Below are positions 60,271 through 63,531 of a stretch of 64,000 nt of DNA, in pieces. Both the position numbers and the translations under genes were made by a program. The notes under the pieces are model-generated. The model made no database searches. It was not told where the DNA came from and saw only the letters and a list, made by a program, of their open reading frames with translations. This stretch comes from Virgibacillus sp. MSP4-1 (lineage in GTDB: Bacteria; Bacillota; Bacilli; Bacillales; Alkalibacillaceae), in assembly GCF_010092505.1 (NCBI RefSeq), contig NZ_CP048021.1, positions 1,488,001-1,552,000 on the forward strand, written 5' to 3'. Position 1 is the first letter of the stretch. Every line of letters starts with the position of its first letter.

Positions 60271-60308
60271 CTCCTCCGGCTCAGTCCAGTCCGTACTTCG
60301 CTAATTAG

Positions 60309-60396
60309 AAAAGCGGAGGCGACCGGTTAGGTCCGACGGCATAAGCAGAATATCCGGAGTGGCCGCAGCTAGACAAACGGGCGCTTCCGCCTTTGT
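60309..60396 (-). repeat. Modular repeat, type A module with internal deletion and cap
   Basis: Minus orientation. The cap AAAGGCGGAAGCGCCCG (60377-60393) is followed by GTCTAGCTGCGG, which runs directly into the second half of a type A core (TATTCTGCTTAT) and the usual end CGGTCGCCTCCGCTTTT. The first half of the palindrome is lost. Confidence 0.75.
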
Positions 60397-60415: not shown

Positions 60416-62146
60416 CTAAAATTTTGGCGGGGACTTTGGCAGCTCACGTTTATGAGCTGTTCGCTTATGCATATTTTCGATTGTATTCCTATCCTGCTCC
60501 GGGACGGATTCTCCTTTTATATACTGATCTATTCTGTCATAAGTGGTTCCCATTTCGTTTTCATCGGTCTGACCTTCCCATAACCCGGCACTTGGTGCTT
60601 TGTGAATAATATCATCAGGGACTCCAAGCTCTTTGGCAAGTTCACGTACTTCGCCTTTGGTAAAGTGAAGAAGCGGGACGAGATCAACACCACCGTCACC
60701 GAATTTTGTAAAGTAGCCGGTATACCATTCTGCAGCATTGTCTGTACCCGTAACTAAATAGCCGTAATTCGCAGCCACCGTATATAATGTACTCATTCTA
60801 AGTCGTGCTCTTAAATTGGCATCTGCAAGACGCTCCTGATTTTCATTCCATTCATTGGCCTCTTTTAAATGGTTCTGCACGGAAGAAAAGAGAACCTCAT
60901 GTGTCTTAGTCAGATCTATGCTCATACTCTTAATTCCTGAACTATTCACAACCTTTTCAGCAGCTTTCTGATCATCAGAATGACTTTTACACGGCATGAT
61001 AACCCCTAGTGAATCTTCTGGAAAAGCACGCTTAATCAAGTGAGCTACCACAGCGGAATCAATCCCCCCACTAAGACCTACTAACAGGCCATTAACGCCT
61101 GCCTCTTTCACCTGATTCTGCAGCCATTGTGTTAAATGCTCCACCTGTTTCTTCATATCCTGATTCCTCTCTTTAATGCTATAATGATTTATTTTACCAT
61201 ATTTTGTTGCTCGTTCAAAAAATTTCTGACGTTGGTGCCACTGTTGCTGGAATCTTTGCAAATAACTTGCAACTTGGTCTTGGGCAGGATTTTTACGCAA
61301 AAAGTGAAGCCATTCCCGAAACAGATCACTCGGAAACATCGTACCGTAATAAAAGTAGGACTGACCCTTAAAGGATTGAAAGATCGGATACCGAAATAAG
61401 TCCTCAAACTGGTCCAGACCTTCAAATAAGAAACGCTGCGCTAACTGGATCCATTCATATTCGTAAGGGGCATACTGAATTAAATCAAAATCAAGCAGAT
61501 AAATTCCATGCTGATTACGGATAAAGTTATGACCCGCATTGTCTCCATGAATAATAAACCTTTTCCTGATGGCCTTTTCCTCTATTTTTCTCCACTTTAT
61601 TTTTTCCATTCGCTCTAATATATCCCGGGTTTGCTTAACAATATTCTGGTAAAAAAGCGTTGCCTGATGCTGGGTAAAAATATCCTTTGTACGTAAAAAG
61701 CGCTGGTATCTTTCCTTGTTTTTTTGCAGGAAGGGCTTCGTTTTTGTCTGTTTGATTGGTAATCCTTTTGCAGTGTCGTGAAAGTCCTGTAAAAGATTTA
61801 TAGCAGCTAGCCGATCTTCATGATACGTATAATTTAACTTACGTCCCTCAACAAATGGACTTAAACACCAGTATTGTCCAAACGAATCTTTAATCCACCT
61901 TTCGCCATTAGGAAAGGGGACAAAACTGATAAAATTTTTCTGATTCTCGATTTGTAAAAATAATGACCATATTTTTTTCGCATGAGAGTGATAACACTTT
62001 ACCATCCACCATTGATTTTCGGCATAAACCTTGAATACGTTCTTCTTTACAGGAATCATTTCCTGACAATCAAGATCGCCCTTTTCCTTTAGAAAATAAT
62101 GGAGACGATCCATAAATGAATCGTCTCTCCAGGAGTTTATTTTCAT
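60416..62146 (-). CDS. nadE: CotS-like kinase fused to NH3-dependent NAD synthetase
   Basis: 576 aa in one frame. Residues 1-330: aminoglycoside phosphotransferase-type kinase of the spore CotS/YsxE/YutH group, with IIHGDNAGHNFI (catalytic loop, near 214) and LLDFDLIQ (metal Asp, near 229). From Met331: complete NadE of about 246 aa, with GLSGGIDSAVVAHL (PP-loop near 360), NLRARLRMSTLY, GTDNAAEWYTGYFTKFGDGG and PSAGLWEGQTDE. Start ATG overlaps the safA stop (ATGA; GAGGAGG upstream). Just before Met331 lie a promoter-like sequence and AGAGAGG nine bases from the ATG, so nadE can probably also be made alone (60416-61156). A lost kinase stop codon is the simplest origin. Confidence 0.88.
   Translation of the reverse strand: MKINSWRDDSFMDRLHYFLKEKGDLDCQEMIPVKKNVFKVYAENQWWMVKCYHSHAKKIWSLFLQIENQKNFISFVPFPNGERWIKDSFGQYWCLSPFVEGRKLNYTYHEDRLAAINLLQDFHDTAKGLPIKQTKTKPFLQKNKERYQRFLRTKDIFTQHQATLFYQNIVKQTRDILERMEKIKWRKIEEKAIRKRFIIHGDNAGHNFIRNQHGIYLLDFDLIQYAPYEYEWIQLAQRFLFEGLDQFEDLFRYPIFQSFKGQSYFYYGTMFPSDLFREWLHFLRKNPAQDQVASYLQRFQQQWHQRQKFFERATKYGKINHYSIKERNQDMKKQVEHLTQWLQNQVKEAGVNGLLVGLSGGIDSAVVAHLIKRAFPEDSLGVIMPCKSHSDDQKAAEKVVNSSGIKSMSIDLTKTHEVLFSSVQNHLKEANEWNENQERLADANLRARLRMSTLYTVAANYGYLVTGTDNAAEWYTGYFTKFGDGGVDLVPLLHFTKGEVRELAKELGVPDDIIHKAPSAGLWEGQTDENEMGTTYDRIDQYIKGESVPEQDRNTIENMHKRTAHKRELPKSPPKF
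61191..61218 (-). promoter_or_regulatory. Candidate internal promoter for the NadE part
   Basis: TTGAAC (61213-61218), 16 bases, TAAAAT (61191-61196) with extended TGG before the -10, minus strand, inside the last kinase codons and 35 bases before Met331. Confidence 0.6.
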
Positions 62147-63258
62147 TTGTCCTCCTCATCATCCCGACCCCAATCATAGGACTGAGGAAACTGACCCTGG
62201 CCATAAGGATTTTGACTCATATTTTGCTGGTATGGGGCTTGCTGACCATATGGGGAAGGGTAGCCATACGGTGCTCCTCCCGGAAAAGGGCTCTGGAATT
62301 GTGTTTGGTATGGTGCACCCCACTGTTGTGCCGGCTGATTCATACCTGATCCCCATGGCTGTTGCTGCTGATAACCCGGCTGAATATTCCACTGCTGCTG
62401 TCCATATGGGGTTGGCTGTTGATTGCCCGTTGCCCACTGATTGGTGTTCCATTCATCAGGCAATTCCGGTATTTCCAGTGAAGAGGATTCCTCATTCATA
62501 TCCAGATTCATTTCCTGATAATTTGCGGTATGATGGACATTCTGGCTGGGTGCTGGCATTTGATCTGGCATATAACCCGGCATTTGCATATTAGATGGCA
62601 TATGAACAGGATTCATTCCACTCATCTGCTGGTGGGGATAGTAAGTTGGATACACAGGCATATAATAGGTGTTCATACCACCTCCGCAGCCACATGGCTT
62701 TTTCGGAACATGATGATAACCCATGTATGGCTGCTGTGGTACCTGAGGATAGTGAACCTGCTGATGCATATAAGTTTGCGGGGTATAATGATAAGTCTCC
62801 ACGCTGATACTTTCCTCTTCGTTATTTTCAATCATCGGCATTTTTGGCATCGAAGGTAACGGCATTTCCTTTTGTTCAGCTTTTTGAGGCTTCTGCTCAT
62901 ATGGCTTCATCACCTTATCCATTGGCTTTTCGTCCTCTTTGATAACTGGAGACATTTCTGGTGATTTATCAATATAAGGATGCTTTGTCGGCTGTTGCTT
63001 GGCAGGCTGGGTGTCAGCCTTAGGCTTCGCCTGCTGAACGGGCTTTTTGGCCGGCTGTTTCTCTGCTCTTTCATTTTCTGCTGCACGTTCCATTTTAACT
63101 GGTTTTGTTGCTGAAGGTACTTTAATTTTCATTCCCGGCAAAATTTCTTCCGGGTTGGATAGTTGTGTATTAAATTCTTTTAATGTGTCAAGATTAACAT
63201 CATATTTTTGAGCAATCTCCCTTAAGGTTTCGCCTTTTTGTACAACATGAATTTTCAA
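62143..63258 (-). CDS. safA: Spore coat assembly protein SafA
   Basis: 371 aa from TTG 63258 (AAAGGAG eight bases upstream). N-terminal LysM (residues 1-49, HVVQKGETLREIAQKYDV; LPGMKIKVPS) that binds the cortex side, a Lys/Pro/Gln linker, and a long Gln/Pro/Tyr/Met-rich region with a CGCGGG cluster near 205. This is the inner-coat hub in B. subtilis; morphogenesis by SpoVID binding follows the LysM. Coupled to the kinase-nadE gene by ATGA overlap. Confidence 0.93.
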   Translation of the reverse strand: MKIHVVQKGETLREIAQKYDVNLDTLKEFNTQLSNPEEILPGMKIKVPSATKPVKMERAAENERAEKQPAKKPVQQAKPKADTQPAKQQPTKHPYIDKSPEMSPVIKEDEKPMDKVMKPYEQKPQKAEQKEMPLPSMPKMPMIENNEEESISVETYHYTPQTYMHQQVHYPQVPQQPYMGYHHVPKKPCGCGGGMNTYYMPVYPTYYPHQQMSGMNPVHMPSNMQMPGYMPDQMPAPSQNVHHTANYQEMNLDMNEESSSLEIPELPDEWNTNQWATGNQQPTPYGQQQWNIQPGYQQQQPWGSGMNQPAQQWGAPYQTQFQSPFPGGAPYGYPSPYGQQAPYQQNMSQNPYGQGQFPQSYDWGRDDEEDK

Positions 63259-63431: not shown

Positions 63432-63498
63432 GACAAAGGCGGAAGTGCCCGTTTGTCCAGCTGCAGCTCCCAGACCCAAGCGGTCGCCTCTGCATTCC
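63432..63498 (+). repeat. Collapsed modular repeat with cap
   Basis: AAAGGCGGAAGTGCCCG, GTCCAGCTGCAGCTCCC, then CCAAGCGGTCGCCTCTGC: both ends of a module with the whole hairpin core deleted. Confidence 0.75.
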
Positions 63499-63531
63499 TA
63501 TTAGCGGCGTGCGCACATGCCGGGCACACAC

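Follow-up and report, generated by a model that had tools for sequence, protein, structure and literature searches.

A lineage-specific fusion of a spore kinase-like gene to nadE, with a putative nadE promoter translated at the joint

How can a kinase gene and nadE come to share one reading frame when the nadE promoter and ribosome-binding site appear to be kept between them, and is the joined protein selected or only tolerated? This question is raised by a locus of Virgibacillus sp. MSP4-1, in the 64,000-nucleotide stretch that we analyzed (the window, within which all positions are counted). A single open frame of 576 codons runs on the minus strand from an ATG at 62146 to a TAG stop at 60418-60416 (60416..62146) and encodes a kinase of the bacterial spore kinase (BSK) type, a linker, and NadE; the frame is also uninterrupted in three other genomes (G002, G010, and G012). 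This confirms the in-frame fusion that an earlier, sequence-only reading had proposed at 60416-62146. The predicted masses are 68.1 kDa for the fused protein and 27.4 kDa for NadE translated from its own ATG; of the products of 66 and 27 kDa announced by the same reading, the smaller keeps its size and the larger has to be corrected. The kinase body spans about residues 1-305 (61232..62146, minus strand), where the match to the TIGR02906 model lies and where the motif residues are invariant in the four fused sequences. The linker, residues 306-330 (61157..61231, minus strand), corresponds to the kinase end followed by the translated nadE promoter, leader, and ribosome site, and is placed by the spacing between a conserved Trp (W303) and the NadE Met (M331), i.e., 28 codons in the alignment of all four fused genomes. 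nadE proper (60416..61156, minus strand; residues 331-576, 246 amino acids) begins at its own ATG (61156-61154) and is delimited by profile and structure matches. Upstream, a safA-like gene with a LysM domain (62143..63258, minus strand; TIGR02899 spore_safA, 67.7 bits, just below the cut-off of 67.85) overlaps the kinase start through an ATGA at 62146-62143, as the sequence-only reading had recognized. The AlphaFold2 model of the fused protein is only fair (mean pLDDT 76.5, pTM 0.50), and for this reason we draw no conclusions on domain contacts from it. Its confidence falls below pLDDT 50 at kinase residues 197-247 and 253-270 and at linker residues 314-325; the latter, which connect the final helix of the kinase to the first of NadE, are compatible in this model with a flexible joint.

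The N-terminal 329 amino acids match the CotS family model TIGR02906 with 60.5 bits (E 1.3e-16), below the curated cut-off of 172.7, and their sole further match is a kinase model at E 0.0024. Judged by its sequence, the window kinase is thus a relative of the CotS family and no member of it by the curated cut-off. A search of solved-structure sequences with the kinase part returned nothing significant (best E 0.15). The BSKs, as listed in PMC2860764, include CotS, CotI/YtaA, YutH, and YsxE; the same source gives HGDxxxxN and DxD as the catalytic motifs of the putatively active members, predicts several classes to be pseudokinases, counts five BSKs devoid of the catalytic D, and notes that no BSK had been assayed. 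The window kinase, with H200-G201-D202, N207, and D219-F-D221 intact, resembles the putatively active members and shares with the BSKs both the sporeforming host and the linkage to coat genes. It differs from them in adjoining safA and nadE rather than spoVID or cotSA, in being fused to NadE, and in scoring below the CotS cut-off. It is also distinct from the YsxE-like and YutH-like kinases of the same genome, which lie at other loci (197.7 and 158 bits, for curated cut-offs of 263.55 and 215.05); these two copies make the window kinase the third in its genome. An assignment of the window kinase to YsxE or YutH was rejected, these models fitting the other loci and not listing the window kinase at E values up to 0.01. 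In the main text of PMC2860764, the words "fusion" and "safA" have no match.

The C-terminal part is a complete NH3-dependent NAD synthetase domain. Indeed, Pfam NAD_synthase covers residues 335-570 (profile positions 2-242 of 242), the TIGR00552 nadE model scores 257.6 bits for a cut-off of 63.65, the SGGIDS motif is present, and the fold is that of the solved NadE structures: the 50 matches listed by Foldseek for the fused model are all NAD synthetases, and so are the best PDB matches. What sets it apart from other NadE proteins is the N-terminal kinase. A comparable situation is known in other organisms, in which NadE bears an N-terminal glutaminase (PMC3376133, for the enzymes described there), and the existence of these glutamine-dependent enzymes implies that an N-terminal extension need not block NadE. 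Both arrangements place a partner in front of the same synthetase domain; however, the glutaminase supplies ammonia, whereas the kinase has no evident catalytic link to NAD synthesis, and only the window fusion contains a promoter inside its joint. One NadE was found in the window genome (G000). The only other match there is partial (29% identity, residues 323-521), is present in many relatives as well, and probably corresponds to a related ATP-pyrophosphatase such as GMP synthase. As for the rest of the pathway, nadA (quinolinate synthase) gave no match in this genome, the nicotinate phosphoribosyltransferase model gave one well below its cut-off, and nadD is present; from this gene content, NAD is perhaps obtained by niacin salvage, with the window NadE as the sole last step. 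A second NadE of a different type occurs in several relatives, and it is the only type in the family members G006 and G018. The window NadE is 39% identical to the Francisella enzyme 3fiu and 33% identical to B. subtilis NadE (1nsy); as 3fiu bears the title NMN synthetase, the substrate preference of the safA-linked NadE may be of interest.

The joint itself carries the signals expected in front of a free nadE gene. A putative −35 element (TTGAAC, 61213..61218, minus strand) is separated by 16 nt from TAAAAT (61196-61191), which has a TG in front and forms with it the extended −10 TGGTAAAAT (61191..61199, minus strand), conserved at kinase-nadE seams and in nadE genes without a kinase. A putative ribosome-binding site for free NadE, AGAGAGG (61166..61172, minus strand), stands nine bases from the ATG and reads AGAGGGG or AAAGGGG at the same position in the other three fused genomes; both the start ATG and the purine-rich site are kept in 4/4. 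The proposal that promoter, AGAGAGG, and ATG were retained at the seam is therefore supported, the positions being exact in the window and having equivalents in all four fused genomes. Promoter-like sites defined by consensus are not above chance (12 found, 9.1 ± 3.0 in shuffles), and the significance of this particular site comes from its conservation, not from its match to the consensus. Indeed, among nadE genes without a kinase in front, 22 of 30 have the extended −10, mostly at the same distance, as compared with 14.6% after shuffling, and all 12 of those labelled as the family (f1) have it; the eight others are L018, L053, L095, L096, L097, L098, L101, and L103. This set was picked by hand (33 loci, three duplicates or short stretches being dropped) and left out the second NadE type (L031, L034-L038, L040, and L041) as well as L105-L121, several of which are clostridial. 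Since the promoter motif, the ribosome site, and the ATG persist in all four fused genomes, free NadE is very probably still made on its own.

Elsewhere, kinase and nadE are often found side by side as two separate genes, in genera that range from Paraliobacillus, Virgibacillus, and Halobacillus to Geobacillus and Sutcliffiella. The gap from stop to start is mostly 18-61 nt (87, 185, and 245 nt in three loci), a value that can come out one codon too small when the true Met has another start codon in front of it. A safA-like LysM start lies upstream in 48 of the 55 distinct loci with enough DNA; the pattern missed seven, among them the fused G010 (L004), and in one of the 48 (L047) safA is not adjacent. 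The wide distribution of the pair and the presence of safA in front of most of them make safA-kinase-nadE an old gene order. After removal of duplicates, 72 distinct seams were retained, of which 67 bear an extended −10 (TGNTANNNT) before nadE and five do not (L043, L044, L046, L056, and L092). In 45 of these 67, the final T of the −10 is also the first base of the kinase stop; the stop comes one codon earlier in 10 (the −10 being TATGAT, which gives TGA), one or two codons later in four, and far from the motif in eight, i.e., five members of the clade that contains the fusions plus L047, L049, and L135. The pattern of unfused ends is ATG-NTA-NNA-TAA, typically M-L-K-stop or M-I-R-stop, written ATG CTA AAA TAA or ATG ATA AGA TAA. 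Where the second codon before the stop encodes Ile, Leu, or Val, it is NTA in 47 of 49 cases, for 30.5% in gene bodies; this count was made on the 65 unfused kinases of at most 327 amino acids and left out the longer ones (the fused kinases, that of Salinibacillus xinjiangensis, L017/L081, and L049). This codon bias, together with the retention of the motif in kinase-less nadE genes, shows that it is a promoter motif and not only a protein motif. Hence, as read from these comparisons, the last codons and the stop of the kinase double as the predicted extended −10 of nadE across many Bacillales genera. Among open-access papers, searched by titles and abstract openings and therefore giving weak evidence of absence, we found neither a BSK-NadE fusion nor a nadE promoter within a kinase stop.

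Searching for the domain pair in other genomes, as the sequence-only reading had suggested, showed that the fused frame recurs in three genera, a recurrence which that reading had counted in favor of a functional fusion. Four of the 22 family genomes have it free of stops: the window genome, G002 (80% identical to the window), G010 (61%), and G012 (59%). Among the matches listed for the order (397 genomes), no others run the full length without a stop, and these four rank first; of the best 80 of 563 loci, a set that may lack the window's own records, a single one is fused, that of Salirhabdus, from the same genome as G012. In the tree built from the kinase and NadE without the linker, the four fused sequences and that of S. 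xinjiangensis group together (support 100/99), and S. xinjiangensis stands beside the two fused members taken for Salinibacillus, the window genome and G002 (95/87). This clade of salt-loving sporeformers comprises few genomes, from Salinibacillus, Salirhabdus, and one further genus. The fused state requires at least two changes on the tree, e.g., one gain and one loss. A stop in close relatives, which the sequence-only reading had named as evidence against it, gives a mixed picture: the other family members that possess the pair (G013, G016, and G005) have one, but within the five-genome clade no kinase stop precedes the start codon of nadE. The window genome and G002 differ so much at silent sites (dS about 2.7, near saturation) that the fused state is not recent. 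In S. xinjiangensis (L009/L048), the kinase frame is shifted as in the fused members, and the nadE leader is two bases longer, so that the kinase ends at an ATGA overlap with nadE instead of running into it. This joint, like that between safA and the kinase in the window, is of the kind found in overlapping operon genes, whereas the four fused genomes have one continuous frame. S. xinjiangensis thereby offers a natural unfused control.

The way in which the stop was lost can be read in the linker. The former kinase end, ATG GTA AAA TAA (M-V-K-stop; 61189..61200, minus strand), is still present and lies out of frame, the window reading it as TAT GGT AAA ATA AAT; unfused relatives end in the phase that the window has left. 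The −10 falls in codon phase 2 in all five clade members versus phase 1 in 60 of the 62 other seams with the motif. The two remaining seams are L135, for which a second candidate −10 existed and was not the one chosen for this count, and L049. From the −10 to the NadE ATG (counted to the codon before Met, with 3 added), the distance is 40 nt, in frame, in the four fused genomes and 42 nt in S. xinjiangensis. The conservation of the old TAA in another phase and the shift of the whole clade point to a net change of one base (modulo three) upstream and not to a mutated stop. For the same two reasons, a point mutation of the kinase stop was ruled out. With the kinase frame offset by one base, translation crosses the promoter, the leader, and the ribosome site and continues into nadE. 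The sequence-only reading had suggested that the kinase lost its stop codon recently, and neither half of this account is supported: genera with saturated silent sites share the fusion, and the old stop triplet is still there, bypassed by a one-base frame shift. Taken together, these comparisons indicate that the gene fusion at this locus is real and lineage-specific, and that its unusual origin can be traced.

Three rival explanations were weighed first. An error of sequencing or assembly in one genome, i.e., a miscounted A-run, could hide the kinase stop. Runs of A are typical sites of sequencing errors, and an AAAA run does stand just before the −10; but the same frame is found in three other genomes and the shifted phase in a fifth, and the identical frame in the three led us to rule this error out, its probability being negligible. 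The same run could make ribosomes slip, some of them ending at the old stop, and a separate kinase would then be produced by programmed frameshifting. This would agree with the stop that the +1 frame meets within the linker in G000, G010, and G012 and with the AAAA run that precedes the −10 in G000, G002, and G010. However, G002 has no stop in the +1 frame of its linker and G012 has no A-run, so that only two of the four genomes combine both elements, and we hold such slippage to be very improbable. Finally, the kinase could be decaying and so little translated that read-through is irrelevant, a view to which the YsxE-like and YutH-like kinases elsewhere in the genome and the predicted pseudokinases among the BSK classes (PMC2860764, as far as its class descriptions go) would lend some plausibility. 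On the other hand, in the fused pair formed by the window genome and G002, the kinase is under strong purifying selection (dN 0.15, dS 2.68), its catalytic motifs are intact, and its start overlap with safA is kept. On the grounds of dN/dS and of the motifs, decay was discarded, and we give it hardly any credence.

The weightier alternative, in line with the sequence-only reading that the fusion, if translated in sporulating cells, would bring NAD synthesis to the coat-assembly operon, is that the fusion is kept by selection, either tethering NAD synthetase, and thus a local NAD supply, to a coat-associated kinase in the mother cell, or tying the amount of kinase to that of NadE. In its favor, three genera with saturated silent sites have the same frame and the same 28-codon length, the kinase is under purifying selection with its motifs intact, and the linker is predicted to be flexible, which would suit two working domains. 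Moreover, when the same linker sites were mutated at random, all four linkers stayed free of stops in about 0.035 of the null runs, and among random linkers matched for length and composition, 9.2% have no stop; the former value hints that the open frame is possibly kept for a reason. But the constancy of the frame is a weak argument, since, of 16 unfused pairs about equally distant, 12 have the same phase, and a constant phase alone therefore says little. The linker protein is barely conserved, with 14-36% identity outside the G000/G002 pair, the NadE ATG and ribosome site, needless in a pure fusion, are kept in all four genomes, and S. xinjiangensis, inside the clade, is unfused. The dN/dS of the linker is about 0.3 for G000 and G002; the other three pairs computed gave 0.8-1.3. 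Its DNA is better conserved than the silent sites of the flanking domains, which are at or near saturation, and this points to a constraint exerted by the promoter and the ribosome site; the linker shows no surplus of synonymous changes (7.1, for 6.2 under the null, P 0.26). The linker thus looks constrained as DNA and not as protein. We consider selection for the fusion doubtful and, on these sequence data, find toleration the likelier of the two, without deciding firmly between them. Its most elaborate form, in which a selected bifunctional spore enzyme would use the kinase to carry NAD synthetase to the coat or mother-cell assembly zone while the promoter, translated as a linker, would make free NadE for growth, seems to us rather unlikely; if true, it would be a case of one gene giving two products under vegetative and sporulation control.

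The best explanation as a whole, to which we assign a probability of roughly two in three, is an old safA-kinase-nadE order in which the kinase frame moved off a stop supplied by the promoter, leaving a mainly tolerated fusion alongside free NadE. In the ancestral order, safA would have been followed by the BSK-type kinase and by nadE, whose housekeeping-type promoter, with its extended −10, would have lain within the last codons and the stop of the kinase. In the ancestor of the five-genome clade, the 3′ end of the kinase would have undergone a net shift of one base (modulo three), which took the frame off this stop. Selection on the promoter, the leader, and the ribosome site would have kept the DNA, through which kinase ribosomes would now read, entering nadE in frame in four genomes and stopping at the ATGA overlap in S. 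xinjiangensis. During growth, RNA polymerase would start at the extended −10, and free 27-kDa NadE would be made from its own ribosome site, as the conservation of these elements suggests. During sporulation, in the mother cell, the safA-kinase message would be translated into the 68-kDa kinase-NadE protein, a timing suggested by safA and the kinase family. As no stop precedes that of NadE, full translation of the kinase frame must yield this fusion unless ribosomes slip. The sigma-E and sigma-K patterns tried matched neither in front of safA nor within safA-nadE; given this, and given that the safA pattern missed G010, expression during sporulation is argued from the gene family and its neighbors. 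The fusion would mainly be a tolerated by-product, both domains probably working much as before.

If this explanation is right, a gene fusion can arise without removal of a stop codon: when the stop is part of the next gene's promoter, displacing the frame by one base upstream suffices, and the bridge between the fused genes is then preserved because the promoter is under selection. The placement of the nadE promoter in the last codons of a spore kinase would be a widespread design, and a case for studying one DNA under two constraints. If, in addition, the fusion is active in spores, it would connect the supply of NAD to the assembly of the coat, a link that would be new.

Two further observations were made around these loci. 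In Paraliobacillus, the seams L043, L044, and L046 have no extended −10, and the gap between kinase and nadE is only 18-30 nt; from this arrangement, nadE may depend there on the upstream message. In the window, the safA-kinase-nadE block lies between oppositely oriented copies of a G+C-rich interspersed repeat (60362-60396 and 63433-63467, inverted; also 60306-60333 and 63473-63500), and a 66-base query taken from this repeat has 24 matches in the genome, itself included.
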